DNA of 55,593 nucleotides from Chloroflexota bacterium. GTDB taxonomy: Bacteria; Chloroflexota; Anaerolineae; Anaerolineales; UBA4823. The stretch covers positions 1-55,593 of the forward strand of contig JAJUJL010000026.1 of assembly GCA_029265355.1 (NCBI GenBank), given 5' to 3'. The translations under genes were made by a program, and so were the position numbers. Shown one piece after another: positions 6,596 to 35,433 of this stretch (position 1 is its first letter; each line of letters begins with the position of its first letter). The notes beneath the pieces are model-generated. The model had not been told where the DNA came from, did not search any database, and was given only the letters and a program-made list of their open reading frames with translations.

Positions 6596-9500
6596 ATGAA
6601 TAATTGTCCGCATTGTGGTTTCCAGAATCCGGAAGGCATTCACATTTGCCTGCGATGCGCCTCTGAGTTGAAGCGCACCTGCCCCAATTGCGGGACGGAA
6701 GCGCCGTTCAACAACCGCTTTTGCGGACAGTGCGGAGCGCGGCTGCAGCCCGAGGCTGTCCAGCCGCAAGCCATTGCGCCAGCGCCAGCCGCCAACAACC
6801 AGCAAGAGCGCATGCTCAAAAACCTGCGCGCGGCTATACCGGCCTCGCTGGCCGAGAAATTCACCCAGGCCTCCAAGGAGCTGTACGGCCAGCGGCGCGA
6901 GGTGACGATTTTATTTATCGCCATCGCCGATTTCGCCGCCCTTTCCCAGCGCCTGGACAGCGAGACGGTATACCTGGCAGTGGACGAGATCGTGCACATG
7001 CTGGCCGGCGTCATCTATAAGTACGAGGGGACGATCGACAAGTACACCGGCAACGGGTTGATGGCGCTCTTTGGCATACCGCTCAATCACGAAAACGACC
7101 CGGAGCGGGCGGTCAGGGCCGCCCTGGAGGCGCGCTACTCGCTCCAGCAGATGAGCGAGCGGCTGCGCCAGCGTTACCAGCACGATTTCGGCTTGCAAAT
7201 TGGCATCCATACCGGTTCGGTGATCGCCGGCTACCTCAATGACCAGCAACACATGGAGTACACCGTCATCGGCGATACCGTGCAGCTCGCTTCCCAGCTA
7301 CAAAAGCAAGCCCCGGCGGGGGGCATCTGGGTCTCCTTCAGCACCTACCAGCGCACTCGTCCGATCATCGACTACGAAAACCTGCCCGCGCTGCGGCAGG
7401 AGGGGATGACAGAAGCGGCAAAGGTGTACCAACCCCTCGGCCTGCGCAACAAGCCAGGGCAGGTGCGCGGCCTGCCTGGACTGCAGGCGCCGATGATCGG
7501 GCGCAGCCAGCAGTTGAAAGCGCTGATCGAAGTGTTCAAGGAGTGCCTCAGCCTGAATACCAGCCAGATCGTGCTGTGCAGCGGCGAAGCGGGGATCGGC
7601 AAATCCAGGCTGGTGGCAGAGTTCCGCGAAGAGTTGGCTTCTTACCCGGCCAAGATGGTGACTGGCACCTGCGCCTCCTACATGCGCATCACACCCTACC
7701 GCGTGGTGGCGGATGTGCTGCGCAACATGCTGTCCATCTCGGAATTAGATGAAGGCGCCGACCAGCGCAGAGCGCTGCTGCAGCGGCTGGAGCAGCTTGG
7801 CCTGGAGCGGAACGACATCCTGCCATTCCTGATGCACGTGCTTGGCATTCTGCACACCGACCCGATGATGGAAGTGCGCGTCAAGCTGCTGGAGCCATCC
7901 ATGCTGCGCCGGCAAATCCACTTTGCCCTGCGCATGTTCTTCATCACCGAGGCGCGCCGTTCGCCGCTGGTGTTGGTCTTCGATGACCTGCACTGGGTCG
8001 ACCAGGCTTCCGGGCAGTTCTTGGAATACCTGTGCCAGTCGCTGGAAGATTTCCCGCTCATGCTGGTGATGGTGGCGCGCGATTTCAGCAAATACAGCCT
8101 GGCGCAGGCGATACAGGCGGCAGCCGAGAAACACCTGCGCCGGCCTCACCGGGTGCAATTGGAGCCGCTGCCCAAGCCGGATGCGCATTTGCTGGTAGAT
8201 TTGCTGGTGCAGGAGAATACCCAGGCAGCCCGCGAGCTGAAGGCGATCATTGCCCGGCGCGCCGGGGGAAACCCCTACTACACCGAAGAGATGGTGCGCG
8301 TGCTGATCGACCACGGCGGGATGGTGTTCCGGGATGGCTACTGGCAGGTGGCTGAAAACGCCGCCAACCTGATCAAGGAAGTGCCTGGAACGCTGGGAGA
8401 TATCATCCTGGCGCGCTTCGACCACCTCCCCGAACAGTTGAAACACGTCTTGCTGCGCGCCTCGGTGCTGGGAGAGACCTTCTCCTTCAAGCTGCTGCAA
8501 GCCCTGGAGGGTGGCGCCAACCTCAACTTGCCCGCCTCGTTGGCCAACCTGGTGGAACGTGACTTCCTGGTGCCCATCCAGTTGGGGGTCGAGGATGGCT
8601 ACATGTTCAAGCACCCCCTGCTGCAAGAAACGATCTACAAGACCCTGCTGAAGCGCGACCTGCGCAAGCTGCACACCCAGGTGGCGCAGGCGATCGAAAG
8701 CGGAGAGTACTGGCTGCCCGGGGAGCGCAACCAGGTGCTGGCTTACCACCTCTCGGAAGGCAGCCAACCGGCGCGCGCCATCCCTTACCTGTTGGTCTCT
8801 GCGGAAATGGCCTACCAGCACTTTGCCAACGACACGGTGATCCAGCTTTACCGGCGCGTGCTCGACTTGATGAAGACGGCGCAGGATGCGCACGGCAGCC
8901 AAAAGCAGCGCGCCCAGGTCGGGTTGGCGCAGGCGCTCAAATTCACCGGCGAGCTGGAGGAGGCTGCCAACCTGCTGCAGGAGATGGTCGACTCGATCCC
9001 GGTCGGCGCGGATGAGCTGCAAAAAACCGACAGTGAGCTGTTCCAGATCTACATCGAAGCGCTGCGCGAGCTGGCCGATATCCGCGCTCGCGAAGGCGAG
9101 CAAGAATATGCCATTCGCCTGCTCAAGCAAGGCATGGCGATGCTGGGCGAATCGGGCCGGAAAGATCACCCGATCATTTGGCGCCGGCTGGCAGACCGGC
9201 TGGCCTGGGTGTATTTCCGCCAACGCAACCTGGACGAGGCTTACAACCTGGTCGACCTGGCGTTGCTCGAAACCCAGACCTGGGAAGCGCAGGACCCCAT
9301 CACCATCGCCTCGCTGTACAACACTATCGGCGGCATCTACTGGATGCGCTCGCGCTACGCCGAAGCCATCGAGAGCGTGGAAAACAGCCTGGAAATCTAC
9401 AAAAACCTGCATTACCACTGGGGCATGGCCAACACGCTCACCAACCTGGGCGTGCTGCACTATTCCACCGAGAAATGGTCGCAGGCGGTCGAGTACCTGG

Positions 9501-12500
9501 AACAAGCCGACCAGTTGCGGCGCGAATACGGCGACGACCCAGAGCGCCCGATCAACCTGAAGAACCTGGGTGAAGTGTTGATCGACATGGGAGACTACCT
9601 GAATGCGCGCTCGCGGCTGGAAACCAGCCTGGAGATCAGCCGCCGCCTGGGCCTGGAGATCGCCCAAACCTACGCCGAGTTGGGCCTGTGCCGGTTGGCC
9701 GTTGTGGAAGGCGACCTGGAGAACGCCCGCCAGCACCTGGCGCGGGTGCGCAATTTGATGCGCGATGTAGATGAACAAAATGACCGCACCGCTCACTACT
9801 ACCAGCTCCTGGCGCTGATCGAACTGCAGGAAGACCATCTCGACGCGGCCCGGTCGGCCATCGAGAGAGCGCTCGAGATTGCGCAACAGGGGGATATGCC
9901 CGCCAGGCAAATCGACTTGCTGCGCGTCAACGGCGCTCTGCACACGCGCCTGGGGTTGTTCGAGCAAGCCGAGGCTTTCCTGCGTCAATCGGCGCAGTTG
10001 GCTCAGCAAGCCAGCGATCGATTCAGCGAGGCCAAAGCCAGCTATGAATTGGGTCTGCTCTACCTGAAGTGGAGCGAGGCAGATCCCGATCGGCCTGCCC
10101 AACTGCGCCAGCAGGCAGAGCGCCAGGTGGATACGGCGCTGCGCATTTTCGAGGCGCTGGGGGCGAGGCACGATTTGAACCTGGCCAAGATTGCTCACGC
10201 CCAGATTGCATTCAAGGATGAGCCGGGCAGATTCAGCCAGCTTGTGGAAGAGCCAGACAGCCAGGCGATGGCGCTGCGGGCGCGCCTGAACCTGCCAGAT
10301 GGCGAATGGCACCAGGCGACGATCTTCTCGGCGCGCCTGATGCCGCGCCGGGGGGTGGATGAAGAGTACATCTTCGAGACGATCGCCTTTCTCATCCCCT
10401 CGCTGGCAGAGCTGATCAAGGAAAACGGCGGGCAGATCATCAACCACCAGGATGGCATCACCGCCATCTTCGGCGCGCCGACAGCCCACGAAGACGACCC
10501 GGAGCGCGCCATGGAAACGGTGATGCAACTGGTCAACTTTTACAACGAGCTGGACCAGCAAACCGAGCTGCCTCTTTCGCTGCACATCGGCGTCACCATG
10601 GGGAAGATCGTCGCTGGTCACATCAACACGGAACAAGGCGCAGAATTCATGGCCGCGGGCGAAGCGGTGACCCTGGCGCGAGCCGTGGCGGAGAGCTGTC
10701 CATCCGGCAAGGTGTGGGCGACCCAGGCAGTGCGAAACATCACCTCCTTCCGCTTCGAGTATGCGCCGGTGTCGCCGAGCCTGAGCGAGAAACTGGAAAA
10801 CGCCACCATCTTCCAACTGGAGGGATTGCGCGAACAAATCCTGCCGGTGCGCGGGTTGATTGGCCTGAAATCACCTTTCATTGGGCGCAACCGGGAACTG
10901 GAAGCCATGCAGCGCATGAGCCAGGTGCTGGAAACCGAGAGCGGCGGCATCATCTGGATCGAGGGAGAAGCCGGTATCGGGAAGAGCCGTTTAATGCGCG
11001 AATTCGCCAACCGGGTGCTCAAGAAAGGCGCCCTGGTGCTGCGCGGCACGTGCACCGCCCGGCGCTCGGAGTACGCCTTCTCGCTGTTCTCGGACCTGCT
11101 GCTGCAGGCTTTCGATGTCCAGCAAAACTATTCTTCCAGGCAGATCAGCGAACAGATCGATGCCAGGCTGCAGAGCTGGTCGCCGGAGCTGGCGGAAATT
11201 CGCCCCTATCTGCAACTGCTGATGGGTGTGCATCCCAGCGGCGTGCAGGGCGAGCGCATCATCTCGATGGAGCCGGAGCAGTTGCGCCGGCAGACTTTCG
11301 TCGCCATACACCGCCTGGTCAGCACGCTGGCGAGCCTCCAGCCGCTGGTGCTGATCCTGGATGATTTGCAGTGGATCGATTCGATTTCCGCCGATTTGCT
11401 GCTGTACCTCTCACACCTGGTGGTCTCGCAGCGCATCTTGTTCGTCTGCGCCCAGCGCCAGAAGGAGATCAGCCCGTTCGAACAGATCCTGGCGCGCACG
11501 CGCAGCATGCACCCTGAGAAGTACGTGCACCTGACCATCGAACCGCTCACCATTGCGGAATGCCGGCAACTGCTGGGAGAATTCCTGGCTTCCGCCGACC
11601 TGCCCGATTCGATTCTTTCGCTGATTGTGCAACAGAGCGGCGGCAACCCGTATTTCATCGAAGAGTTTGTGCGCCTGCTGGTGGAGAAGGATTACCTGCG
11701 CCTGGTGCGCGGTCGCCTGGTGGCCAATATCACCCTCAAGGCAGACACGCTGACGATCCCGGCCTCGTTGGAAAGCCTGATACGCGCCCGCGTGGATGCC
11801 CTGGAAACGCCGGCGCGGCAGCTCCTGCAGGTGGCGGCGGTGATTGGACACCGCTTCAACCGGACGCTGCTCAGCCGGGTGGCGGAGCGCGAGCAGATCG
11901 ACGTGATCCTGGCGGCGCTGCACACCCGCGGCATGCTCAACCCGACTGCGGAGGCTGAACATTGGGAATTCAGCCACCCGTTGATCGAGTTGATCGTGTA
12001 CAACACCGTGCTGATGGCGCAGCGCCAGATCCTGCACCAGCGCACCGCCGCCGCCCTGGAAGCCCAATGGCAGGGCAGCGAGGAGGAGCACGCTGAAGAC
12101 CTGGCCTACCATTACGGCAAAGCGGAGATGCACGCCAAGGCGCTGCACTATCTGATCCTGGCAGGCGAGCGCGCCGCCGCCCGGCACGCCAACGATGCGG
12201 CCGTTTCCTTCTACGAGCAGGCCGCCGACCTGCTCAGCGTGGTGCCGCAAGCTGGGGACGAGTCTCGCTGGCGCATTCTGAGCGGGATGGGCGAGGTGTA
12301 CCAGTTCATCGGCAACTATGACAAGTCGCTGGCGGTGCTGCAAAGCGGGTTGGACCTGGTGAACAGCGCCCACCTCTCGGCAGCGCAAAAGGCCGGCATT
12401 TTCCGCCGCATGGGCGACACCGCCCACAAGAAGGGCGACCAGGAACAGGCGATCGTTTACCTGCAGCAGGCTTTGAAGGTGGTCGGCGAGGCGCAGGATG

Positions 12501-13507
12501 CGATCTCCCAGGTGGAGACCGCTCGCATCTACGCCCGCCTGGGATGGTGCCTGTTCATGCTTTCGGAGTTGGAGAAAGCCAAGGAGGCGGTGATGCAGTC
12601 CATGCAGCACGCCGCCAAAGCCAACAATACCACCGCCCTGGCAATGGCAGAAAATTACCTGGGTGGAATCCTTTACCGCCAGGGAGACCTGGAGCAAGCC
12701 ATGCAGCACACCCGCACTGCGATGACCTACTGGCAGGAGCTGGGATATAGCTGGGGCGTGGCGGCTGCGCTGAGCAACCTGGGCATCCTGGAGATCACTT
12801 CGGGCAACTGGCAGGCAGCTCACAGCTCGATCAAGCGCAGCCTGGCTCTGCGCCAGGAAATGGGCGATGTGGACGGGGTGGCCATCACCAACCATAACCT
12901 GGGGCACCTGCTGCGAGACCAGGGCGATATGGAGCAGGCCGAGCTGCATTACCGCGATAGCCTGGCGGTCTCTCGTCCCTTCCAGATGAACTGGCACGCA
13001 GCCAATTCCTTCGTCGGACTGGCCCAGTCGCTGCTCTACCAGGGGCGCACCGATGAAGCCGAGGAAGCGCTGCACGAAGGGCATCGCCTGGCGCAGGAGA
13101 TCAACGCCCCGGATGTGATCGTGGAGGCGCTGTGCACCTCGGCGGAGATTCACCTGGAACGGGGGCAATTGACGGAAGCCGAGTCGCAAGCGCAAAGCGC
13201 CGAAAAACTGGCCACCCAAATCGGGATCAGCCCGCTGCAAGCCACCGCCTGCCGCCTGCAATCGGCCAGCCTGCAGCGCCAGGGACAGTTGCCGCGCGCC
13301 AGGCAGAAGCTGGAGGGCGCCTGGCGCGCCCTGGCGGGCAGCCCGGACATGCTGGAAGACGGCCGGCTGCATGTGCAAGCCATGCTGATTGCGCAAGCCT
13401 CCAACGAGCCGGAGCAAGCCGCCCGGCATCGCCAGGAAGCGGAGCGCATTTTCAACCAGCTTGGGGCGGCGCGTGACCTGAAGATCCTCTATTCCATTGC
13501 AAAATAA
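6596..13507 (+). CDS. Giant two-fold zinc-ribbon / pseudo-cyclase / AAA / TPR regulator
   Basis: The 2303-aa protein begins with two zinc ribbons (C4/C7/C18/C21 and C29/C32/C43/C46). Half one has a class III nucleotide-cyclase domain (about 98-275), an AAA/STAND ATPase with Walker A GEAGIGKS (about 330) and Walker B LVLVFDDLHWVD (about 458), and TPRs (about 740-1200). Half two repeats this: cyclase fold (about 1236-1380), ATPase with GEAGIGKS (about 1456) and LVLILDDLQWID (about 1585), TPRs (about 1865-2295). Both cyclase folds lack catalytic residues. The first metal Asp is Ala in VTILFIAIADF and Arg in ATIFSARL; the second Asp is Asn in TGNGLMALFG but kept in HQDGITAIFG; the Asn/Arg transition-state pair is lost in both. 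Both ATPase motifs are intact. It is therefore likely a signalling scaffold rather than an active cyclase (inference). A terminator follows. Confidence 0.92.
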   Translation: MNNCPHCGFQNPEGIHICLRCASELKRTCPNCGTEAPFNNRFCGQCGARLQPEAVQPQAIAPAPAANNQQERMLKNLRAAIPASLAEKFTQASKELYGQRREVTILFIAIADFAALSQRLDSETVYLAVDEIVHMLAGVIYKYEGTIDKYTGNGLMALFGIPLNHENDPERAVRAALEARYSLQQMSERLRQRYQHDFGLQIGIHTGSVIAGYLNDQQHMEYTVIGDTVQLASQLQKQAPAGGIWVSFSTYQRTRPIIDYENLPALRQEGMTEAAKVYQPLGLRNKPGQVRGLPGLQAPMIGRSQQLKALIEVFKECLSLNTSQIVLCSGEAGIGKSRLVAEFREELASYPAKMVTGTCASYMRITPYRVVADVLRNMLSISELDEGADQRRALLQRLEQLGLERNDILPFLMHVLGILHTDPMMEVRVKLLEPSMLRRQIHFALRMFFITEARRSPLVLVFDDLHWVDQASGQFLEYLCQSLEDFPLMLVMVARDFSKYSLAQAIQAAAEKHLRRPHRVQLEPLPKPDAHLLVDLLVQENTQAARELKAIIARRAGGNPYYTEEMVRVLIDHGGMVFRDGYWQVAENAANLIKEVPGTLGDIILARFDHLPEQLKHVLLRASVLGETFSFKLLQALEGGANLNLPASLANLVERDFLVPIQLGVEDGYMFKHPLLQETIYKTLLKRDLRKLHTQVAQAIESGEYWLPGERNQVLAYHLSEGSQPARAIPYLLVSAEMAYQHFANDTVIQLYRRVLDLMKTAQDAHGSQKQRAQVGLAQALKFTGELEEAANLLQEMVDSIPVGADELQKTDSELFQIYIEALRELADIRAREGEQEYAIRLLKQGMAMLGESGRKDHPIIWRRLADRLAWVYFRQRNLDEAYNLVDLALLETQTWEAQDPITIASLYNTIGGIYWMRSRYAEAIESVENSLEIYKNLHYHWGMANTLTNLGVLHYSTEKWSQAVEYLEQADQLRREYGDDPERPINLKNLGEVLIDMGDYLNARSRLETSLEISRRLGLEIAQTYAELGLCRLAVVEGDLENARQHLARVRNLMRDVDEQNDRTAHYYQLLALIELQEDHLDAARSAIERALEIAQQGDMPARQIDLLRVNGALHTRLGLFEQAEAFLRQSAQLAQQASDRFSEAKASYELGLLYLKWSEADPDRPAQLRQQAERQVDTALRIFEALGARHDLNLAKIAHAQIAFKDEPGRFSQLVEEPDSQAMALRARLNLPDGEWHQATIFSARLMPRRGVDEEYIFETIAFLIPSLAELIKENGGQIINHQDGITAIFGAPTAHEDDPERAMETVMQLVNFYNELDQQTELPLSLHIGVTMGKIVAGHINTEQGAEFMAAGEAVTLARAVAESCPSGKVWATQAVRNITSFRFEYAPVSPSLSEKLENATIFQLEGLREQILPVRGLIGLKSPFIGRNRELEAMQRMSQVLETESGGIIWIEGEAGIGKSRLMREFANRVLKKGALVLRGTCTARRSEYAFSLFSDLLLQAFDVQQNYSSRQISEQIDARLQSWSPELAEIRPYLQLLMGVHPSGVQGERIISMEPEQLRRQTFVAIHRLVSTLASLQPLVLILDDLQWIDSISADLLLYLSHLVVSQRILFVCAQRQKEISPFEQILARTRSMHPEKYVHLTIEPLTIAECRQLLGEFLASADLPDSILSLIVQQSGGNPYFIEEFVRLLVEKDYLRLVRGRLVANITLKADTLTIPASLESLIRARVDALETPARQLLQVAAVIGHRFNRTLLSRVAEREQIDVILAALHTRGMLNPTAEAEHWEFSHPLIELIVYNTVLMAQRQILHQRTAAALEAQWQGSEEEHAEDLAYHYGKAEMHAKALHYLILAGERAAARHANDAAVSFYEQAADLLSVVPQAGDESRWRILSGMGEVYQFIGNYDKSLAVLQSGLDLVNSAHLSAAQKAGIFRRMGDTAHKKGDQEQAIVYLQQALKVVGEAQDAISQVETARIYARLGWCLFMLSELEKAKEAVMQSMQHAAKANNTTALAMAENYLGGILYRQGDLEQAMQHTRTAMTYWQELGYSWGVAAALSNLGILEITSGNWQAAHSSIKRSLALRQEMGDVDGVAITNHNLGHLLRDQGDMEQAELHYRDSLAVSRPFQMNWHAANSFVGLAQSLLYQGRTDEAEEALHEGHRLAQEINAPDVIVEALCTSAEIHLERGQLTEAESQAQSAEKLATQIGISPLQATACRLQSASLQRQGQLPRARQKLEGAWRALAGSPDMLEDGRLHVQAMLIAQASNEPEQAARHRQEAERIFNQLGAARDLKILYSIAK

Positions 13508-13580: not shown

Positions 13581-13808
13581 ACGCGCAATTAACACCCGCC
13601 TAACAATCTTGATAGGTTGTTTTACAGACAAAGTATTGCAATTGTGTTAATCTTTAAGCAACGAAACACCAATCAACCAAAGGCAGGCAAGCAGAGCCCG
13701 CCACAAAGGAGTGGATTTATCGAAAGACGAGTGATGCAGTAAGGCCAAGATGCAAGCGGTAACGGTATCATGTTGACCAACCATAATAATCTCCGAAGGG
13801 GAGGGATC

Positions 13809-14063
13809 ATGAAGAAAATACACAGAATGATGATCATACTTGTGGTGCTGGTGATGCTGGGGGTGCTGATCGCCCCGCTGGCCTCCCCCCGCCTCCACCA
13901 ATTTGCAGGTGTGGGAGACCTGATCTGGTCGGGCGGGCTGCTCTGGTCGGGTGGGCTGCTCTGGTCGGGCGGGCTGCTCTGGTCCGGTGGATTGCTCTGG
14001 TCGGGCGGGCTGCTCTGGTCCGGTGGGTTGCTCTGGTCGGGTGGGCTGCTCTGGTCGGGATAG
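13809..14063 (+). CDS. Secreted LLWSGG hexapeptide-repeat protein
   Basis: The 84-aa protein has a basic start (MKKIHR), a hydrophobic helix (about 8-25, APLAS at its end) and a short linker. It then has eight consecutive hexapeptides, LIWSGG, six LLWSGG and LLWSG, running to the stop (residues 38-84). The start at 13809 is chosen because GGGGAGG precedes it at ideal spacing and gives a signal-peptide-like N terminus. Serine, glycine and leucine codons vary between units (TCG/TCC, GGC/GGT, CTG/TTG), while only one residue varies, so the peptide sequence appears to be under selection. Trp-Ser-Gly repeats suggest a self-assembling or envelope-associated peptide, but I do not recognise the family. 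An HD-GYP gene follows after 42 bases. Confidence 0.75.
   Translation: MKKIHRMMIILVVLVMLGVLIAPLASPRLHQFAGVGDLIWSGGLLWSGGLLWSGGLLWSGGLLWSGGLLWSGGLLWSGGLLWSG
13920..14060 (+). repeat. 18-bp tandem repeat coding for LLWSGG
   Basis: Eight near-identical 18-bp units of the form CTGCTCTGGTCGGGTGGG are joined head to tail in frame. The differences between units are synonymous except for ATC (Ile) in the first. The 18-bp length keeps the reading frame if copy number changes. Confidence 0.95.
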
Positions 14064-14105
14064 CGGCGCACGCCGCCCCCGGCTTCTTGACACCCGTCCG
14101 ATCCA

Positions 14106-15800
14106 GTGAAAGCTATGGATCATTTCGATAAGCCGCACGCAGACAGGCGTGCCTCACGAAGCGAAGAAGCGACGCAACACCAGGCGGCGCTTCTTCGCGC
14201 TGGCGAGCAGGCGGTATTGACGGAGACGCCAGAGCGGGAGCGGCTGCTGGCGATCATGTCGCGCGCTAACCAGGCTGCCGCATACCCGGACAGCCAGCAA
14301 TTGGTGGAGCGCATGATCGACCTGTTGATCGAAATCACCCAGGCAGAGTGCGCCAACTTCTATTTGCTGGACGCCCAAAGCGACGAACTCGTCCTGCAGA
14401 TGGTGCGGGGCGATGAGCAGAGCCAGTACCTGCTGGGCCTGCGCTTCAACCGCCAGCACGGTTTACCCGGAATCACGATCCACGGAACGCAGCCGGTGGT
14501 GATCGGCGATTTGGACGCCGATCCACACTGGCTGCGCTCGTTGGACCCAGCCAACGCGGCGCGCAAACGCAACGTGATCAATTTGCCTTTGCTCGCCCGG
14601 GGGCGCACACTGGGCGTGGTGCAGATCTTCAATTACCAGCAGGCAGACCTGGACCTCTTGCAGATGCTGAGCGAACGCCTGTCCAGCGAGCTGCTCCAGC
14701 GCATGGAGCTGGAGAACATGGCGCGATCGAGGCTGCGCCTGGAGCAGCTCATCGATGTGCTGGGGCAGGTAGCAGGCACCTTGGACCGCAACCGGCTGCT
14801 GCGCCTGGTCACCGAAAACGTCGCCCACCTGGTGAACGCTGAGCGCAGCTCGATCTTCCTGGTGGATCCTCAGACGGATGAGATGATTTTCCAGGTGGCT
14901 TACCAGGCGCCAGAAACGCAGGCGCCCACCACGATCGGTGGGACAATTGGCAGCGGATCAGGGATGGGTCAGCCAACGGCGCAAAGCGGTGAGCACAACG
15001 AAAAAGCCTTCTCGTATTACAACCGCTCGGCGATCACGGTGCCCTTGCAGCGCATCATGCTGGCTGACAGCCAGGGCGAGCAGCAGGAGAAAGCGATCGG
15101 CGGGCTGATGGCGCTCACCCCGCGGCACGCCGCCTTCCAACCGGAAGACGCTCACTTGATGCACATCCTGGCGAACCAGACCAGCACCTTTCTGCAGGTG
15201 GCAGATATGTACGAAAGCGCTGGCGAGCTCTTCCTGGACGCCATCCGGGCGCTGACGGCTGCCATTGACGCCAAGGATCCCTACACGCAGGGACACTCGC
15301 AGCGGGTTTCCGATTACGCTGTGCTGCTCGCCCGCGACCTGGGACTGGATGAAGACCTGGTCAACAATGTGCGCATCGCCAGCCTGCTGCACGATGTGGG
15401 TAAAATTGGCATCCCAGACGCCATACTGCTCAAGAAGGGCAGCCTGACCGAGCACGAGTACGAGGTCATCAAACGCCACGCCATCACGGGCGTCACCATT
15501 CTCAGCCAGGTGCGCCTGCTGGCGCCGGTGCTGCCGGGCATCGCTGAGCACCACGAGCGCCTGGATGGTTCGGGTTACCCGGGAGGGAAAATCGGGACGC
15601 AAATCTCGCTGATGGGGCGCATCGTTGCGGTGGCGGATGTGTTCGACGCCATGACCAGCTTTCGCCCATACCGCCCGGCATTGAGCGCGGCGGAGGTGCT
15701 GGCTTACCTGGAGAATCACAGCGGCAGGCTGTTCGATGCTGACTGTGTGCAAGCGCTGCGAAACGTGCTGCGGCGGGCCAATCCGTTGGCAAGCCCCTGA
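14106..15800 (+). CDS. GAF-GAF-HD-GYP cyclic di-GMP phosphodiesterase
   Basis: The 564-aa cytoplasmic protein has two GAF-like sensor domains (about 60-205 and 215-365) and a C-terminal HD-GYP domain (about 375-550). Diagnostic motifs are intact: YTQGHSQRVSDYA, LLHDVGKIGIPD and the HHERLDGSGYPGG signature. HD-GYP enzymes hydrolyse c-di-GMP to pGpG or GMP. The GTG at 14106 or the ATG at 14115 could be the start. It lies just after the LLWSGG-repeat gene, so co-regulation with an envelope component is possible. A GGDEF cyclase with the opposite activity is encoded at 39234. Confidence 0.93.
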   Translation: MKAMDHFDKPHADRRASRSEEATQHQAALLRAGEQAVLTETPERERLLAIMSRANQAAAYPDSQQLVERMIDLLIEITQAECANFYLLDAQSDELVLQMVRGDEQSQYLLGLRFNRQHGLPGITIHGTQPVVIGDLDADPHWLRSLDPANAARKRNVINLPLLARGRTLGVVQIFNYQQADLDLLQMLSERLSSELLQRMELENMARSRLRLEQLIDVLGQVAGTLDRNRLLRLVTENVAHLVNAERSSIFLVDPQTDEMIFQVAYQAPETQAPTTIGGTIGSGSGMGQPTAQSGEHNEKAFSYYNRSAITVPLQRIMLADSQGEQQEKAIGGLMALTPRHAAFQPEDAHLMHILANQTSTFLQVADMYESAGELFLDAIRALTAAIDAKDPYTQGHSQRVSDYAVLLARDLGLDEDLVNNVRIASLLHDVGKIGIPDAILLKKGSLTEHEYEVIKRHAITGVTILSQVRLLAPVLPGIAEHHERLDGSGYPGGKIGTQISLMGRIVAVADVFDAMTSFRPYRPALSAAEVLAYLENHSGRLFDADCVQALRNVLRRANPLASP

Positions 15801-15884
15801 TCGAAGGATGCGCCGGGCGGATAAGGCCCGGTGCGATTGACAGAACAACTGCCCTGGGGTGCGGATAGGAAAGGATTCGATGTC

Positions 15885-17024
15885 ATGATCTCTCAAGGAA
15901 GAGGGCGGAGGGCGCTCGATCTGGTGTGGATCGCCTGCCTGTGCGCAGGCTTTTTCGGTTTGGGCTGGCTGGTCAACGATCGCCTGGGCAATGTGAGCGA
16001 ACAGTTGATCGTCTCCGCCCACCAGAAGATCCGCAGCGAATCGTACTTCAACCAGGCGAGCGCCCAGGAGCTGGCCAACGCCGCGGTGCGCGGCATGCTG
16101 GCGGAGATCAACGACCCCTACGCTGAGCTGATCGAGCCCGAAGCCGCCCAGGACTTGCTGGACACCTTCGCCGGGAAAACCGGCGTGGTGGGGCTGTACG
16201 CCGAGAACCGAGATGGGCAGGTGGTGATCGGCATCGTCTTCCCAGAGAGCGCCGCGGAAAAGGCCGGTCTGCGAGCCGGCGACGTGATCCTGTCCATAGA
16301 CGGGGTGAAGCTGGATAACGAAACCGACTCATCCGAAACCGGCCTGCTGATCCGCGGCGCGCCGGGCACAAGCGTGCGGCTCGAGATTATGCGCCAGGGG
16401 CAAACCCAGGTGGTGGAGGTCATCCGCCAGGAGCGGCAGTTCGTGGCGTCGCGCATGCTGCCGGGGAAGGTGGCGTATCTCAGCCTGAACGCCTTCAACA
16501 AGACCGCCAGCGCGCATCTGAAGCTGGCGCTGGAAGAGCTGCTGGCGCAGGAGCCGGCCGGGCTGATCTGGGACCTGCGCGAGAACGAGGGCGGCGACAT
16601 GCAGGCGGCGCAGGAGATGTTGAGCTATTTCATTGACGATGGCCTGCTGTTCACCGCCGAGCTGACCGGCGGGCGCCGGGTTCCCTTCCACGCCAGGGGC
16701 GCGGCCATTGCCCCTGATCTGCCCCTGGTGGTGCTGATGGATCACAGCACTTATTCCGCCGGCGAGACCGCCGCGGCGGCCATCGCCGAGCTGGGACGGG
16801 GTGTGACGGTGGGCAGCGCCACCTATGGCAAAGGCTTAATCCAGGCGACCATGCCCTTGAAGAGCGGCGCGCTGCTGCAAATGACCATTGCCCGCTGGCT
16901 TTCGCCCAAGGGCGAGTGGTTCCAGGAGCGCGGCGTGCCGCCGCAGGTGGAAGTGTTGGACGACCCGCAGACCGAGGCGGACGAGGTGCTGGAGAAGGGC
17001 ATCCAGGTGCTCTTGGGGGAATAG
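15885..17024 (+). CDS. C-terminal processing peptidase, S41A/CtpA family
   Basis: The 379-aa protein has an N-terminal membrane anchor or signal (VWIACLCAGFFGLGWLV), a PDZ domain (about 95-190, with GIVFPESAAEKAGLRAGDVI) and the S41 protease domain. The catalytic serine is in DHSTYSAGETAAAAI and the catalytic lysine in TVGSATYGKGLIQ. Such proteases cleave C-terminal tails of extracytoplasmic proteins or process signalling proteins. The ATG at 15885 is preferred over the GTG at 15831 because AAAGGA precedes it and it gives a tidy signal anchor. It is on the same strand as the HD-GYP gene, 84 bases downstream. Confidence 0.92.
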   Translation: MISQGRGRRALDLVWIACLCAGFFGLGWLVNDRLGNVSEQLIVSAHQKIRSESYFNQASAQELANAAVRGMLAEINDPYAELIEPEAAQDLLDTFAGKTGVVGLYAENRDGQVVIGIVFPESAAEKAGLRAGDVILSIDGVKLDNETDSSETGLLIRGAPGTSVRLEIMRQGQTQVVEVIRQERQFVASRMLPGKVAYLSLNAFNKTASAHLKLALEELLAQEPAGLIWDLRENEGGDMQAAQEMLSYFIDDGLLFTAELTGGRRVPFHARGAAIAPDLPLVVLMDHSTYSAGETAAAAIAELGRGVTVGSATYGKGLIQATMPLKSGALLQMTIARWLSPKGEWFQERGVPPQVEVLDDPQTEADEVLEKGIQVLLGE

Positions 17025-28115: not shown

Positions 28116-28390
28116 CGGATGATTTGGAGACCCAACTCATCCTGGAGCGCCTGCGCTCGACGCTGCAATTGCTGCGTAGCGAGGTGACGCAGCTCGAGAC
28201 CAGCTTGAAGTATTACCAGGAGCTGAGCTCGACGCGCATCAGCGCGCTGGAGAAGCGCAGCGACGATTTCGAGAGCCGCCTGCGCGCTCTGACCGACGCC
28301 TCCACGCAGTTCAAGGTGCTGGCAGGCCTGGCCACCGGCGGTGGGCTGCTCTCGGCGCTGGCGTTGCTGCGCGCGTTGCTGGGTTTGTGA
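28112..28390 (+). CDS. Coiled-coil plus membrane-anchor phage protein (XhlA-like)
   Basis: The 92-aa protein consists of a long charged helix (ETQLILERLRSTLQLLRSEV..., about 4-60) and one C-terminal hydrophobic segment (VLAGLATGGGLLSALALLRALLGL). This is the layout of XhlA/haemolysin-type lysis helper proteins and some spanin-like proteins. The GTG start overlaps the previous stop and the 3' end overlaps the terminase start in the same GTGA way. The function is inferred from architecture only. Confidence 0.6.
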   Translation: MTDDLETQLILERLRSTLQLLRSEVTQLETSLKYYQELSSTRISALEKRSDDFESRLRALTDASTQFKVLAGLATGGGLLSALALLRALLGL

Positions 28391-29922
28391 GGCTTATGCA
28401 ACGGGATGACTATCTACTTTATAAAAATACCCTGCAGCGTCTGACGCGCTTCGCGGGTTCCGGTGCAGGGATCGACCTGCGCCGCTATCAGCAGGAGGCG
28501 GGGGAGGCCATCATACAGAGCGTGATGCAGCGGCGCGGCGACAGCCTGGTGGTGATGCTGCCGCGCCAGTCGGGCAAGAACGAGCTGCAGGCCCAGGTGG
28601 AAGCTTTCTTGCTGTATCTCTATCACCGCATCGGCGGTGATATCGTCAAGGTCTCCCCAACCTTCAAGCCGCAAACGCAGAATGCGATGCGCCGCCTGGA
28701 GCGCGTGCTGGAGAACCACGCCGTGCTGAAGCGCATGTGGCGCAAAGAGTCGGGCTATATCTACCGGGTGGGCCAGGCGCGGGTGATCTTCCTCTCCGGC
28801 GACCCCAACGCCAAGGTGGTCGGCGCTACGGCTTCGCTGTTGCTGGAGTGCGACGAGGCGCAGGACGTGGGCGCGGCCAAGTGGGACAAAGATTTCGCCC
28901 CCATGGCGGCTTCGACGCGGGCGACGCGCGTTTTCTGGGGCACTTCCTGGACCAGCCAGACGCTGCTGGCGCGCGAACTGCGCGCCGCCCGGCTTGCCGA
29001 GCAGCAGGATGGGCGGCGCAGGGCGTTCGTGTGCAGCGCTGAGCAGGTCGGCGCGGAAGTGCCGGCGTACGCTGCCTTCGTGCAGGAGCAGGTGGCGCGC
29101 TTCGGACGCACCCATCCCCTGGTGCGCACGCAGTATTTCTCGGAGGAGATCGACGAGCAGGCGGGTATGTTCCCGGCAGAGCGCCTGGCGCGCATGCAGG
29201 GCAACCACGCCAAAGAGGAGCGCCCAGGCAGCGCCGGGGCGGTGTACGCGCTGCTGGTGGATGTGGCGAGCGGCGACGAAGACGCCGCCTTCGGCGCGCT
29301 GGCCAACACGGCCAGCCAGCCAGGCGGCCGCCGGGACGCCACCGCTTGCACGGTGGTGCGCGTCGATCTGAGCACGCTGGCGGACGAGCTGCTGCGCCTG
29401 CCCACTTACCGGGTGGTGCAGCGCTACGCCTGGGTGGATGTGCGCCACAGCGAGCTGTACGCCGTGCTCAGGGCGCTGGCAGAGCACTGGCAGGCGCGCC
29501 GCGTGGTGATCGACGCCACCGGCGTGGGCGCCGGGCTGGCCTCTTTCCTGGAGAAGGCGCTGCCAGGCGTCGTGACGCCCTTCATTTTCACCAGCCGCAG
29601 CAAGTCAGACCTGGGCTGGGGCTTCCTGGCCGCTATCGAGAGCGGGCGCTACCTGGAATACGCCCCGGCGGACGAGCTGCAGCGCCGCTTTTGGGAGGAA
29701 TGCCGCTATGCAGAGATGAGCGTCCAGGAGGGACCGGGCAAGCTGATGCGCTGGGGCGCGCCGCCCGGCGGGCGCGACCCGCTCAGCGGCGCGGCGCTGC
29801 ACGATGACCTGCTGGTCTCGGCGGCGCTGTGCGCCGAGCTGGACCGCCTGCCGTGGGGATTGGGCGAGTCGCACGTCGTGGCAGCGCAGGACCCTTTGGA
29901 GGGTCTGCGGGATATTTACTGA
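28387..29922 (+). CDS. terL: Phage terminase large subunit
   Basis: The 511-aa protein is a DNA-packaging motor. The ATPase domain has a Walker A-like PRQSGKNE (near residue 60), Walker B with the catalytic Glu in LLLECDEAQ (near 155), and a coupling-type FWGTSWTS motif. The C-terminal RNase H-like nuclease domain has acidic residues in YALLVDVASGDED, VVIDATGVGAGL and ALHDDLLVSAAL. Length and motif order are normal, so it should be functional. The GTG start is chosen because it overlaps the previous stop like its neighbours; ATG 28396 is an alternative. The 142 bases after it hold no gene. Confidence 0.93.
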   Translation: MRLMQRDDYLLYKNTLQRLTRFAGSGAGIDLRRYQQEAGEAIIQSVMQRRGDSLVVMLPRQSGKNELQAQVEAFLLYLYHRIGGDIVKVSPTFKPQTQNAMRRLERVLENHAVLKRMWRKESGYIYRVGQARVIFLSGDPNAKVVGATASLLLECDEAQDVGAAKWDKDFAPMAASTRATRVFWGTSWTSQTLLARELRAARLAEQQDGRRRAFVCSAEQVGAEVPAYAAFVQEQVARFGRTHPLVRTQYFSEEIDEQAGMFPAERLARMQGNHAKEERPGSAGAVYALLVDVASGDEDAAFGALANTASQPGGRRDATACTVVRVDLSTLADELLRLPTYRVVQRYAWVDVRHSELYAVLRALAEHWQARRVVIDATGVGAGLASFLEKALPGVVTPFIFTSRSKSDLGWGFLAAIESGRYLEYAPADELQRRFWEECRYAEMSVQEGPGKLMRWGAPPGGRDPLSGAALHDDLLVSAALCAELDRLPWGLGESHVVAAQDPLEGLRDIY

Positions 29923-30064
29923 CCTATCCCCCTGCCCTGGAGTTTGGTCTTTTCGAGGATTAGAGTGGCATGCCTAGCAGATATGTGGGAATTTATCCAT
30001 CGCATCACTGCCAGATTTAGAAAAGGCCAAACTCAAAGGAAAGATAAGTCAAATAAGGAGGTCT

Positions 30065-32116
30065 ATGCCAGGCAATGCAATGAGAGTGGCGTTCGATAAG
30101 GTGGCGCTGGGGGCGGAGGCGCCAGCGGGGCCAGCGCGGCGCTACCGCTGCCGCTTTGTGCGCGCCGGCAGGGTGCGCGCCGCCGGCAACCAGCCGGGGC
30201 CGTTGATCCTGGAAGCCAGCGCTTTGGAGCAGGCCTGCCAGGCGGGGCTGTTCGATGGGCGGGCGGTGTTCGTGGATCACGCCGCCTGGCTGGAGAGCCC
30301 CTCGCTGCGCAACCTGGTGGGCGTGACCGGCCAGGCAGCCTGGGACGCCAGCGAGCAGGCGGTGCACGGTGTGGTGGAGCTGCTGCCGGGGGGAGAAGCG
30401 CTGGCGGAGCTGCTGGATGAGATCGTCGCCCGCCAGGCGCCAGACGTGGGTCTTTCGCTGGTGTTTTGGCCCGAGTTTGCCGGAGAGCCTGGACCGCACG
30501 GCGAGCGCCGCGTGGCAGGCATTCGCCACATCGAGAGCGTCGATTTGGTCTTCGAACCCGCCGCCGGCGGGCGCATCCTGCAAGCGCTGAGCAGCGCTGC
30601 TTGGTGGGCAGGCTCACAGCTTGCCGCACAGTCCAATAGGGCAGGCGAACAGCTTGCCCCACAAGCCGATCGGGCAGGCGAACAGCTTGCCTTACAAAAG
30701 ATAAATGCACAAGGAGAACATCTCATGAGTGAAGCACAGATCGAGCAATCCGTTGCACCTGGCGAGCAGGAGGGCGCACAGGACTGGCAGTTGGCCGTGG
30801 CGCGCTCGGCAGCCTCGCTGCTGGTCGCCGCCAGCGGCCTGCCGGCCGCCTCGCAGCAGCGCCTGCTGACCCAAACCTATGCGCACCCCGGCGAAGTCGA
30901 GCAAGCCATCCGCAACGAGCAGCAGTACCTGGCGGCGCTGCAGGAGCACAACGCCATCCAGCTTCCCGGGCGCGCCCCACGCTCGCCGCACATCCAGGTC
31001 GGCCTGAGCGGGCTGGAGCAGGTGCAGGCAGCAGCCGAGGCGCTCTTCCTTGGCCGCCGCCCGGAGCAGGGCATTCCCCCTTTGGCGGGCATCCGCGAGC
31101 TGTACACGCTGCTCTCCGGCGACTACGAGATGGCGGGCGTCTTCCACCCGGAGCGTGTGCGCCTCGCCAACGTCGATTCGAGCAGCATGGCGGGGCTGGT
31201 CGCCAACGCTCTGAACAAAGCGGTGGTCAACCTGTTCCAGGAGTACCCGCGCTGGTGGGAACCGCTAGTGATGCAGGAGAACTTCGCCACGCTGCAGCAG
31301 GTCAAGTGGATCACGCTGGGCGGCGTGGGCGAACTGCCCACCGTCTCGGAAGGTGCCGCCTACACCGAGCTGACCTGGGACGACCTGACTGAAACCAGCG
31401 ACTTCACCAAGAAGGGCGGCTACCTGGGCATCACCCTGGAGGCGATCGACAAGGACGACACGCGCCGCATCCAGGCCGCGCCGCGGGCGCTGGCGCAGTC
31501 CGCCTGGCTGACGCTCTCCAAGAGCATTTCCAACATCTTCACCAGCAACTCGGGCGTCGGTCCCACGCTGAGCGACGGGCTGGCGCTGTTCCACAGTTCG
31601 CACGGCAACCTGGGCAGCACGGCGCTGACGCTCAGCTCCTACGCCGCGGCGCGCACGGCGATGCGCAAGCAGACCGAGCTCAACTCCGGCGAGCGCCTGG
31701 GGGCGCTGACCGCGCCCAAGTACTTGCTGGTGCCGCCCGACCTGGAGATCACCGCCCTGCAGGTGCTGGCTTCGCAGTACGACTACTCCTACGCCCTGAG
31801 CAACGGCACCGCAGCGCCGGACAACGCCTTCGCCGAGGGCAGCGACCGGGAAGCGCGCTTCAATTCTGCTCGCCGGCGGGTGATCGTGGTCGACCTGTGG
31901 ACGGACTCCAACAACTGGGCGGCCTGCGCCGACCCGCGCCTGTACCCGACCATCGGGCTGGGCTTTCGCTACGGGCCCACGCCGGAAGTGTTCTCGGTGG
32001 CCTCGCCCACGGCTGGGTTGATGTTCACCAACGATACACTGCCAGTCAAGGTGCGCTTCTTCTACGCCGTTGGGCCGGTGGATTACCGCGGGCTGTACAA
32101 GGCGAACGTGGCCTAG
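30065..32116 (+). CDS. Prohead protease fused to HK97-fold (gpT-like) major capsid protein
   Basis: The 683-aa frame has two parts. Residues 1-180 resemble a prohead maturation protease, with a candidate His in VFVDHAAW, Ser in PDVGLSLVFW and the terminal strand IRHIESVDLVF. Residues 221-683 resemble the Mu gpT-type major capsid protein, with LFHSSHGNLG, AARTAMRKQTELNSGE, PKYLLVPPDLE and a WAACADPR end segment. The join (residues 181-214) is made of three 33-bp repeats of host intergenic type. An internal ATG at 30725 has AAGGAG in front of it. Either one polyprotein is made and self-cleaved, or the capsid protein is also made separately from 30725. AAGGAGG precedes the first ATG. Confidence 0.88.
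   Translation: MPGNAMRVAFDKVALGAEAPAGPARRYRCRFVRAGRVRAAGNQPGPLILEASALEQACQAGLFDGRAVFVDHAAWLESPSLRNLVGVTGQAAWDASEQAVHGVVELLPGGEALAELLDEIVARQAPDVGLSLVFWPEFAGEPGPHGERRVAGIRHIESVDLVFEPAAGGRILQALSSAAWWAGSQLAAQSNRAGEQLAPQADRAGEQLALQKINAQGEHLMSEAQIEQSVAPGEQEGAQDWQLAVARSAASLLVAASGLPAASQQRLLTQTYAHPGEVEQAIRNEQQYLAALQEHNAIQLPGRAPRSPHIQVGLSGLEQVQAAAEALFLGRRPEQGIPPLAGIRELYTLLSGDYEMAGVFHPERVRLANVDSSSMAGLVANALNKAVVNLFQEYPRWWEPLVMQENFATLQQVKWITLGGVGELPTVSEGAAYTELTWDDLTETSDFTKKGGYLGITLEAIDKDDTRRIQAAPRALAQSAWLTLSKSISNIFTSNSGVGPTLSDGLALFHSSHGNLGSTALTLSSYAAARTAMRKQTELNSGERLGALTAPKYLLVPPDLEITALQVLASQYDYSYALSNGTAAPDNAFAEGSDREARFNSARRRVIVVDLWTDSNNWAACADPRLYPTIGLGFRYGPTPEVFSVASPTAGLMFTNDTLPVKVRFFYAVGPVDYRGLYKANVA
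30606..30696 (+). repeat. Three in-frame 33-bp copies of an intergenic palindrome inside the capsid gene
   Basis: Copies starting at 30606, 30639 and 30672 read GGGCAGGC(T/G)(C/A)ACAGCTTGCC. The spacing of exactly 33 bp equals 11 codons. They encode AGSQLAAQS, RAGEQLAPQAD and RAGEQLALQ. The same hairpin unit occurs outside genes at 21812-21832. Confidence 0.9.
30715..30727 (+). promoter_or_regulatory. Internal ribosome binding site and start for the capsid part
   Basis: AAGGAG (30711-30716) stands eight bases before ATG 30725, in frame with the large capsid frame. A separate 463-residue major capsid protein could be made from here. This would restore the two-gene arrangement usual in phages. 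Confidence 0.55.
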
Positions 32117-32129
32117 CCCGACGCCCTGT

Positions 32130-32205
32130 CGCTGCGAGGCGAAGCAGTCTCCCGGCAGGCGGGGAGATTGCGTCGCTCGCTGGAGAACGCTCGCTCGCAA
32201 TGACC
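32130..32205. repeat. Dispersed GAAGCAGTCTCC-type palindrome between phage genes
   Basis: GCGAGGCGAAGCAGTCTCC, GGCGGGGAGATTGCGTCGC and GCTCGCAATGACC belong to the same family as 36880-36965 and 6320-6412. It is a host-style repeat located within the virus-derived operon, between the capsid gene and the next small gene. Confidence 0.7.
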
Positions 32206-32231
32206 CTTACTCGAGTTATGGAGGTTTCCGA

Positions 32232-32585
32232 ATGAACCGCACCATCCAACACACCTATCACATCCCCGGGACGTTGACGGCCAATGTCAGCATTCCGTTC
32301 AAACTCTACTCGGACGTCAGCCTGGTGCACGTCAGCGCAGTGGGCAGCAACGCCAACGACGCCACGCTGAAGATCGGCAACAGCAGCGACGACGACGCTT
32401 ACCTGCTGGCGGCAGGCATCGGCGACAGCGGCGCGCCGGTGGAGTTCGACCGCGATAACTTCGTGGGCGGTGTCGATCCGCACATCAAGAAGGGCACGAC
32501 CATGCTGTTGACGCTGGATTACGATGGCGCTGGCGGTGCAGCGGCGCAGAACGTGACGCTGGTGCTGACCTTCACGGAGGGATGA
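32232..32585 (+). CDS. Small beta-rich phage protein, possible head decoration protein
   Basis: The 117-aa protein (MNRTIQHTYHIPGTL...) is rich in beta-strand-forming and acidic residues and ends in NVTLVLTFTEG. It follows the major capsid gene directly, where decoration or stabilising proteins are often encoded. I see no diagnostic motif. GGAGG stands before the ATG at 32232; the longer frame upstream is repeat sequence. Confidence 0.6.
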   Translation: MNRTIQHTYHIPGTLTANVSIPFKLYSDVSLVHVSAVGSNANDATLKIGNSSDDDAYLLAAGIGDSGAPVEFDRDNFVGGVDPHIKKGTTMLLTLDYDGAGGAAAQNVTLVLTFTEG

Positions 32586-32587
32586 AC

Positions 32588-32646
32588 CTCACCCTATCCC
32601 CCATCCCCATCCCCTCTCCCGGACTGGGAGAGGGGATGGGGTGAGG
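32588..32646. repeat. Long hairpin of the CCCATCCCCTCTCCC type
   Basis: CTCACCCTATCCCCCATCCC and CCCTCTCCCGG pair with CTGGGAGAGGGGATGGGGTG and AGGGAG to make a stem of over 25 bp. It stands between two phage genes, three bases after one stop codon and 20 bases before the next start. The pattern is a common host intergenic palindrome. Confidence 0.75.
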
Positions 32647-32665
32647 GAGACACAAGGAGGCTGAC

Positions 32666-32920
32666 ATGGCAAGAACAGGGCACATCACCATCACGACGGC
32701 CGGCACGCCGGTGCAAGGCACCGACCAGCAGGCCAACGATATTTACCTGGCGGGGCACCCGAGCAACGCCGGCAATGTGTGGGTCGGCGGGATCGGCGAT
32801 GCAAATAAGTATCCCATACCACCTGGGCAGCAGGTGGTGGTGAACGTGGGGAATCTGAACGCGCTGGAGTTCGATGCAGATACCAGCGGCGATAAAGTGT
32901 GCTGGCTGATTTACTGGTAG
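32666..32920 (+). CDS. Small phage head-associated protein
   Basis: The 84-aa protein (MARTGHITITTAGTPVQGTD...) has GHPSNAGNVWVGG, PPGQQVVVNVGNLNALEFDAD and SGDKVCWLIYW. This is a pattern I associate with small beta-structured proteins found next to gpT-type capsid genes in phages. A decoration or head-fibre role is plausible but not proven. AAGGAGG precedes the ATG. Confidence 0.6.
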   Translation: MARTGHITITTAGTPVQGTDQQANDIYLAGHPSNAGNVWVGGIGDANKYPIPPGQQVVVNVGNLNALEFDADTSGDKVCWLIYW

Positions 32921-32929
32921 GCGGGCGCT

Positions 32930-34474
32930 ATGTTTCCTGCCCAACTGGTGAGAGTCAACCCGTCTACACTGACCAGGATGCCTGGGCGGATTGTGACGAG
33001 CGCGCCGCCAGGCTTTGATTGGTATGTCGATTCTGTGGCTGGCAATGATGGCAATTCGGGGCGAACCCCGGGCCAGGCGTTTCAAAGCCTGGCGGCGGTG
33101 AACGCGGTGCTCGCTGCGGGCGACCGGATCGGGCTGAGGCGAGGCAGCACCTGGTATGAGAAGCTGACGCTGCAGACGGGCTGCAAGGTGGCGGCCTATG
33201 GGAGCGGGGCCAGGCCGATCATCGAGTGCAGGGATGCCATCGGCGCGGGCGCCTGGACGAAAAGCGGGGGATACACGAACGTTTACCAGGCGACGGTGAC
33301 GTTCGACGCGGGCATACTGGACGACCCAGAGCTGCACGTGTGGGAGGACGGGGCGCCTTACCTGCAGCAAACGAGCATCGCGAATGTGGATGCTAACCCG
33401 GGCAGCTTCTATGTGGCGAACAGCTCCACTTCGCCGCAGACGGTGTATATCCATGCGTTTGGCTCGACCAACCCGACCAGCGATGGAAAGACGAGGTTGT
33501 ATAACCCACGCGCCTATGCGGTGGGATCGACCAATGCGGTGGACCGCTTGATTATTCGGGATGTACACGCGATTGGAAACCTGCGCGGGGATGGGGCGAT
33601 TGTGTGCCGCGACGACAGCCAGGCGATCAACTGCGTGGTTGAATGGGGCGGGAAGCACGAGATGTACATGGGGGAAGGCTCGGTCGTGGCCAACTGCACG
33701 TTTTACGATTCGATCGATGCGACCAGCGCAACCATGCTGGTATTCAACAAGAACACGCCGACCGGAAAAGATAACTATGTCTTGAATTGCACTTTTAAGA
33801 TCCGGTCAACGTATGCAAACAACCACAAGTGCGGACCGGCAAACAGCCATAACAATGTGAGCGGGAGCTTCGGCACGGTGTATTTTCGGAATTGCCGGTT
33901 TGAAGGCTTCTCGGGCGCGCGGATGCCGATGAATCACCATGCGCACGTGCGCTACGAAGATTGCACCTGGTTGAATTGTGGGCAAGGGCTGGATGTGAAC
34001 AGCACAAACACGAGCATCACGGTGAGCGGGGGGAGCTGGGAGAGCAACGTGCTGTACCAGCGGATGATCAACATCAACATCAGCGGCGGGGCGTGTGTGC
34101 TGCGCATTGAGAACTTCACGATTAAACCCACGGCGGTGACTGACACGGGCTTTGTGTACTTGAATGCGGCTTGCATTGTGCAGCTCTCGAATGTGACCTT
34201 TGATCTATCGGGGCTATCGAGCGGGCTGCGCAAGTGCATCTACCTGACAAACACAGGGGCAGACCTGACCTATGAAGATTGCACCTTTTTAGGACATGCC
34301 ACGGCTGGGGCGACGTATGTAGATTTGAATGTCACGCCGACGAGCTGGGCGGCGGATCGCAACAGTTATCGCCCGACGGCCTCTTACTGGCGGCTGGCGC
34401 CGACGACTTACACCACACTGGCGAACTGGCAAGCTGCGGTGACGCCGAGAGAGGCGAACAGTGTGACGCTGTAG
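32930..34474 (+). CDS. Beta-helix tail-spike-like protein
   Basis: The 514-aa protein has a short N-terminal region (about 25 residues) and then a cap with FDWYVDSVAGNDGNSG. A right-handed beta-helix runs to the end, with turns such as DCTWLNCG and NCTFKIRS. No signal peptide is present, consistent with a virion spike or fibre assembled in the cytoplasm. It is a clear paralogue of the Tat-exported protein at 52931: both share the WYVDS..GND cap, the GDRI.LRRGS segment, the YPNVY/YTNVY region and SHHNVSG/SHNNVSG. Such spikes bind or cut surface polysaccharides; no catalytic residues could be assigned. It starts nine bases after the previous stop. Confidence 0.8.
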   Translation: MFPAQLVRVNPSTLTRMPGRIVTSAPPGFDWYVDSVAGNDGNSGRTPGQAFQSLAAVNAVLAAGDRIGLRRGSTWYEKLTLQTGCKVAAYGSGARPIIECRDAIGAGAWTKSGGYTNVYQATVTFDAGILDDPELHVWEDGAPYLQQTSIANVDANPGSFYVANSSTSPQTVYIHAFGSTNPTSDGKTRLYNPRAYAVGSTNAVDRLIIRDVHAIGNLRGDGAIVCRDDSQAINCVVEWGGKHEMYMGEGSVVANCTFYDSIDATSATMLVFNKNTPTGKDNYVLNCTFKIRSTYANNHKCGPANSHNNVSGSFGTVYFRNCRFEGFSGARMPMNHHAHVRYEDCTWLNCGQGLDVNSTNTSITVSGGSWESNVLYQRMININISGGACVLRIENFTIKPTAVTDTGFVYLNAACIVQLSNVTFDLSGLSSGLRKCIYLTNTGADLTYEDCTFLGHATAGATYVDLNVTPTSWAADRNSYRPTASYWRLAPTTYTTLANWQAAVTPREANSVTL

Positions 34475-34536
34475 AGCGGACTTCACCTGGCGCCTGGATT
34501 GAAGGGTTATGCGACCTCCCGCCTGCTCAAATCGAA

Positions 34537-34580
34537 GCTGTTCGCAGGATGTGGGCAAGGCAAGATGACCTGAAAGGAGA
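34537..34580 (+). repeat. Fragment of the dispersed structured element (copy 5)
   Basis: GCTGTTCGCAGGATGTGGGC followed by AAGATGACCTGAAAGGAGA matches the first 44 bases of the element at 40185 and 48545 at most positions. Its GGAGA now serves as the ribosome binding site of the gene at 34586. Confidence 0.65.
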
Positions 34581-34585
34581 CAAAA

Positions 34586-35423: not shown

Positions 35424-35433
35424 TAAAGATTAA

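Follow-up and report, generated by a model that had tools for sequence, protein, structure and literature searches.

What is the function of a small gene whose product, after a leader, is almost entirely a row of one tryptophan-containing hexapeptide? The window analyzed here, a stretch of 55,593 nucleotides from a Chloroflexota bacterium (genome G000), carries such a gene at 13809..14063 on the + strand, an 84-aa open reading frame with the product MKKIHRMMIILVVLVMLGVLIAPLASPRLHQFAGVGD-LIWSGG-(LLWSGG)6-LLWSG-stop. The earlier note described a peptide made only of LLWSGG hexapeptides; its eight units running to the stop codon (13920..14060 in our unit listing) are present, but they open with LIWSGG and close with LLWSG, a unit shortened by the stop codon. 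TRF detected the array independently (18-bp period, 7.8 copies, score 217). A probable ribosome-binding site, the purine-rich AAGGGGAGGG at 13796..13805 (+), ends 3 bases ahead of the ATG at 13809, and this start is therefore favored over an upstream ATG at 13770. The peptide is laid out as a lysine-led hydrophobic helix, a short spacer and then the hexapeptide array up to the stop. AlphaFold2 modeled residues 2-25 (13812..13883, +) as a single long helix with high confidence (pLDDT 86-88 over the first 20 residues), and this N-terminus is probably a signal sequence or an uncleaved membrane anchor; the peptide is probably exported and probably membrane-anchored. It matched no Pfam or NCBIfam family at the thresholds used, and no second array of this kind was found in its genome by DNA pattern, by peptide query (E up to 1) or by a broad profile of the tails (E up to 0.01).

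One reading that has to be weighed at the outset is that there is no working gene here, the array being a tandem-repeat relic of the tail of an S8 subtilase or DNA that codes on the opposite strand. Repeat DNA expands easily, and a long open reading frame occupies 13647-14138 on the opposite strand. When the eight distinct changes in the window array were compared between frames, two of them belonging to the stop codon, 5/8 were synonymous in the + frame and 4/8 in the best antisense frame. This comparison alone is indecisive, and the strand is decided instead by the presence of a leader and a ribosome-binding site and by the relatives described below, whose leaders resemble one another. Codon variants among all eight window units amounted to 5 silent and 1 replacement in the + frame. 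Over ten arrays of this kind, with stop-cut last units included and the varied heptads of G1007 left out, we counted 51 silent and 13 replacement variants where 24% silent would be expected (p = 5e-21, a value that is too small because copying of a unit carries its codon variants along and makes them dependent). The replacements were confined to four arrays (window, 1; G798, 3; G1253, 5; G1020, 4) and the other six had none. Thus, given the silent excess and the restriction of replacements to four arrays, the likeness of the units in most arrays is kept by selection on the protein, beyond recent copying alone, which agrees with the earlier suggestion that silent third-base differences reflect selection on the peptide. 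Taken with the same three lines of evidence, these counts make a relic or an antisense reading hardly credible, and they bear out the view of the repeat peptide as a real and probably exported product.

A search of contigs with the peptide alone yielded no confirmed relative; 325 stretches matched the pattern and none passed tblastn. A DNA pattern scan over contigs of 84,980 species returned 41 stretches, which were read by eye. Many of these, from Streptomyces, Pseudomonas and others, were frames arising by chance in DNA of high GC content, those from Chloroflexota were mostly C-terminal tails of S8 subtilases, and one further S8 hexad tail came from a record titled Acidobacteria (L097). Two were free peptides like that of the window, one beginning MSKRYLV... 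with five YIWTGG units (L077) and one beginning MLVKRV... with ten QFWTGG units (L078), the last unit being cut in both. According to sequence and profile, the gene directly downstream of each encodes an S41/PDZ protease. The window has such a gene as well, at 15831..17024 (+), with matches to Pfam Peptidase_S41 (PF03572, 1.3e-38) and PDZ_2 (2.2e-12), encoding a C-terminal-processing protease that we treat as the partner of the peptide. The survey of similar repeat peptides and their neighbors that the earlier note had called for thus returned relatives, and their recurring neighbor was an S41/PDZ protease.

These three proteases (window, L077 and L078) were used as the seeds of profile A1; they had themselves been found through the peptide. 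In the 148 genomes around that of L078, branch members scored 312-670 bits against at most 280 bits for other S41 proteins, and five members were new (G798, G778, G812, G807 and G908). A second profile, A2, built from eight proteases and run over 396 genomes of the class, added G1253, G1007 and G1020. The protease of G985 is identical in sequence to that of G908 and was counted once. A further 365 genomes around G1253, partly the same ones, gave no new branch protease, the four found being already known. Profile A1 found no member in 399 other genomes of the phylum (E up to 1e-78, best four candidates per genome); in the searches of 399, 396 and 365 genomes scoring was limited to the best 4 or 5 candidates per genome, and members may therefore have been missed. 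The branch therefore stands at 11 distinct members, three seeds and eight found from the protease alone. In the 37 other genomes of the family to which the window belongs, A1 found no member (best other match, 251.6 bits), and the peptide-protease pair is thus patchy.

The window protease falls under the curated cut-off of the NCBIfam prc model TIGR00225 (210.6 vs 218.6 bits), as do those of L172 and L176. With the S41 HMM, scores ran down to 326 bits within the branch and up to 311 bits among other S41 proteins, and because this gap is small, membership in the branch leans on the tree. There, with 47 of the other 93 rows included, the 11 members fell on one side of a branch with support of 100/100; L225 and the window formed two long end branches. 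The catalytic residues Ser309 and Lys334 are kept in 11/11 members. Four positions separate the branch from the other S41 proteins: Leu at 122 (10/11 members, vs Ala in 87/93 others), Trp at 247 (10/11, vs Leu in 71/93), Met at 257 (10/11, vs Leu in 84/93) and Thr at 313, four past the catalytic serine (10/11, vs Ile in 79/93). We take position 122 to belong to the carboxylate-binding loop of the PDZ domain, on the basis of the start of the PDZ match (119-197) and of what is generally known of such domains, and position 257 presumably lies near the active site. As judged from these sequence comparisons, the window protease belongs to a diverged branch of C-terminal-processing proteases, and the branch-specific positions could be places where a changed substrate shows.

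Read by eye, the loci of all 11 members hold a leader-plus-repeat peptide adjoining the protease gene or one gene off. An automatic rule (same strand, no more than about 1.5 kb apart) recovered the association in 8/11 members and in 0/95 other S41 open reading frames (Fisher 5e-10, ignoring relatedness), a set in which at least one gene occurs twice (L165/L169), some entries are close relatives and contig ends truncate part of the flanks. A looser rule gave 9/11 against 0/95 and the loosest 9/11 against 1/95. The automatic rule misses the window, where the peptide is 1.8 kb away, and L224, with varied seven-residue units; the peptide of L174 has three units only. The scan for spaced Trp residues near proteases also listed many chance frames with three of them, which were sorted by eye. 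The peptide gene stands ahead of the protease gene at nine loci and behind it in L176 and L224, and in the window a gene for an HD-GYP protein sits between the two. The linkage of peptide and protease is strong and, since a repeat peptide stands beside every known member of this S41 branch, it suggests that the two work together. In the reverse direction, a profile of eight free peptides run over the 148 genomes found, among the hits read, no free peptide beyond its own seven, which rank first by construction. Of 20 regions taken from its weaker hits, 18 were C-terminal parts of S8 subtilases, one (L251) stopped with its contig before a domain was reached and one (L253) was a chance frame.

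The repeat unit varies between genomes and yet is nearly uniform inside most arrays. Besides the eight units of the window, the 11 loci hold five YIWTGG, ten QFWTGG, four FAWSGG followed by a last unit YIWTG (G798), four MWWHGG, three YYWAGG, five YLWAGG, six VNWGG, six WSWAGG with one WAWAGG, varied seven-residue Trp units (G1007) and a Trp-free SIGTIN array (G1020). Nine of the 11 peptides terminate in -W-x-G at the stop. In the two others, the units of L225 are SIGTIN and its C-terminus is no repeat, and L224, whose seven-residue units vary, ends in MNYAH, so that neither Trp nor -W-x-G is strictly needed. The SIGTIN locus (G1020, L225), where a leader-led (SIGTIN)n hexapeptide array occupies 977-1345 beside an S41 gene of the same branch, was found from the protease alone; with this array beside a branch protease, the bond of the protease appears to be to a repeat peptide rather than to Trp, as these data suggest.

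Proteases of the S41/PDZ type act on C-termini. An exported peptide of small size whose C-terminus is apolar, repeated and free, encoded beside a dedicated S41/PDZ protease, fits the reading that the peptide is a dedicated substrate, or at least a dedicated C-terminal ligand, of the co-encoded protease, and we give this reading a probability of roughly one half. The peptide would be exported and probably held in the membrane by its leader, with the row of Trp hexapeptides and an apolar free C-terminus on the extracytoplasmic side, and peptide and protease would both act outside the membrane. The PDZ domain may bind the -W-x-G C-terminus, and the protease may then trim the repeats stepwise from that end, in which case the repeat number would set how long or how strongly the peptide holds the protease.

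A close parallel in the literature is CtpA of Bacillus subtilis, an S41/PDZ protease whose cleavage substrate, YneA, is small and has a single N-terminal membrane segment (PMC6051672). Both cases would join an S41/PDZ membrane protease to a small protein whose N-terminal membrane segment leaves the rest facing outward, but YneA, in the part of that source available to us, is not described as a tandem-repeat protein, whereas the window peptide is nearly all hexapeptides after its leader, is encoded next to its protease and is a putative substrate (PMC6051672). Prc (Tsp) of Escherichia coli, another related system, is described in the portion of the source consulted as a soluble periplasmic protease whose adaptor, NlpI, is a TPR lipoprotein and no repeat peptide (PMC5686067).

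The gene between peptide and protease in the window (14106..15800, +) encodes a GAF-GAF-HD-GYP protein according to Pfam and to its motifs HDVGK and HHERLDGSGYP. It starts 42 bp past the peptide stop, and 30 bp separate it from the S41 gene, spacings that make a single transcript of the three genes plausible. The earlier note built on this gene when it proposed that the peptide may belong to a c-di-GMP-controlled matrix; from the repeat sequence it also suggested a possible beta-solenoid or amyloid-like fiber, or insertion in membranes. The position of the HD-GYP gene directly after the peptide gene accords with such a matrix or fiber protein. However, blastp (E 1e-8) found no relative of the HD-GYP protein among the open reading frames called in the ten other neighborhoods, which span about 8.5 to 19 kb each and are in some cases cut by contig ends; the S41 protease is present in all ten by selection of the loci. 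AlphaFold2 predicted no fiber-type fold, the repeats of the peptide reaching pLDDT 35-44 from a shallow alignment of 3 sequences, and thus gave no confident repeat fold and no evidence for a solenoid or an amyloid, although with so few sequences the model could have missed a fold. We therefore find control by c-di-GMP, and a matrix role with it, very improbable.

Several other features of the window were recorded. At 6596-13507 a 2303-aa protein is encoded that combines numerous TPRs with adenylate/guanylate cyclase and AAA ATPase domains, two of each kind, and sequence relatives of this protein occur near the pair in G908 and G1020. Genes for a terminase large subunit, a head maturation protease/major capsid protein and a portal protein at 28387-36857 probably mark a prophage or a region of phage origin adjoining the locus. 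A 46-bp tandem repeat of 3.7 copies is found at 998-1165, at the end of an iron-dependent-repressor gene, and a run of about 29 G (92% matches) at 55484-55512, close to the contig end, is possibly an assembly or sequencing artefact.

Hexads similar to those of the peptide form the C-terminal tails of S8 subtilases, and in four genomes these are clustered with the pair. G812, G807 and G798 share the gene row VWA protein, peptide, S41 protease, histidine kinase and S8 subtilase with a GYSWVGG tail, and in G1253 the row is S8 subtilase with tail, peptide, S41 protease and histidine kinase; Pfam was run on the four S8 proteins and, for G798, also on the VWA protein and the kinases, whereas the others were named by blastp grouping with these. 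Of all these genes, the window has only those for the peptide and the S41 protease at the locus. The window peptide used as a query matches the S8 tail of G045 at 1.4e-13, and profile A6 matches the window peptide at 7.4e-12, partly by construction, LLWSGG being one of its 12 rows. Tails and peptide are alike in their tandem arrangement of two residues, W, one residue and GG at the C-terminus; they differ in that the former are attached to proteases, whereas the array of the peptide stands alone behind a leader, with no subtilase domain by Pfam. In ten genomes, hexad tails were found on S8 subtilases, or on fragments that read as such, with no branch protease at E 1e-60, and the role of the hexads, as far as this distribution indicates, is therefore wider than this protease. 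G908, G1007 and G1020 gave no match to the tail profile, which also missed their own free repeats. A 1004-aa protein of G825 (L263, 4176-7187), which reads as S8-like in its C-terminal part, has a tail of over twenty LVWDGG units.

These tails raise a structural or docking alternative, in which Trp hexads bind one another or the cell envelope, the anchored peptide scaffolds S8 subtilases through the tails that match it, and maturation or release of the assembly falls to the S41 protease. The occurrence of similar hexads as S8 tails points to it, as do the gene rows of G812, G807, G798 and G1253, which put a tailed S8 with peptide and S41. In the genome of the window, however, none of the 12 S8 open reading frames over threshold ends in a hexad tail and the broad tail profile finds only the peptide, and in most genomes examined the free peptide and the S8 tails have different units, FAWSGG in G798 being the exception seen. 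No confident fold was predicted by AlphaFold2 for either kind of repeat, the one S8 tail modeled reaching a pLDDT of about 19-27 from a likewise shallow alignment (11 sequences). We consider a docking module rather unlikely on this evidence. Under the substrate or ligand reading, the tailed subtilases of such genomes could be accommodated as well, in that the protease may trim or release their tails too, with the free peptide competing.

Two simpler relations between free peptides and tails were dropped. They are not mutually exclusive, several genomes carrying both. An origin of the free array of G798 by copying from its FAWSGG S8 tail is improbable as well, its serine codons being TCC/TCT in the free peptide and AGC/AGT in the tail. 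This pattern of TCN and AGY serine codons in FAWSGG units was observed in L172 (1318-1407) and L257, both of G798, and to judge from these codons the free and the tail array probably arrived at one and the same unit independently.

A last alternative is that the array is a multi-copy precursor, which the protease together with exopeptidases would cut into identical hexapeptides serving as lineage-specific extracellular signals, as a counterpart of the KEX2-processed precursors of fungi. Like the latter, as far as the accessible part of the source describes them, the window peptide has short repeats that are nearly identical and a putative processing protease (PMC6339444). Its leader, a predicted helix of residues 2-25, may correspond to their signal sequence. 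It differs in being bacterial, in the type of protease and in its repeat region, which contains no K or R and hence no dibasic sites between units. A dedicated protease, a leader and near-identical units that are selected while their silent sites differ would suit such a precursor. So would the fast change of the unit between close relatives, the leaders of G764 and G798 being equal in 39/40 residues with units of YIWTGG and FAWSGG, respectively, and the histidine kinases near the pair in five loci (G812, G807, G798, G764 and G1253; assigned by blastp grouping, those of G798 also checked with Pfam). On the other hand, the units have no fixed cleavage motif between them, no transporter or receptor was seen to accompany the pair, and similar hexads also occur on S8 tails, which leaves a signal precursor improbable. 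A RiPP precursor was also considered, on account of a weak TigB match in L224, and dropped, since the window peptide matches no NCBIfam RiPP model over its cut-off; the sub-cut-off scores seen were 20 of 70 bits for TigB in L224 and 16.6 of 25 bits for thiocillin in L225. The TigB motif returned nothing from the literature searched.

Our literature searches, with most subscription journals outside their scope, found no report of such a peptide or pair, and six hexapeptide strings appeared in none of the papers covered. For S41 C-terminal-processing proteases, natural substrates are generally difficult to identify. Here, one branch of these proteases seems to bring its partner in the same locus, with units that are easily synthesized and that exist in several natural variants. 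In addition, a Trp-hexapeptide module to which our scans of Pfam and NCBIfam assigned no family over cut-off occurs by itself as well as at the end of many Chloroflexota subtilases, as their tail.
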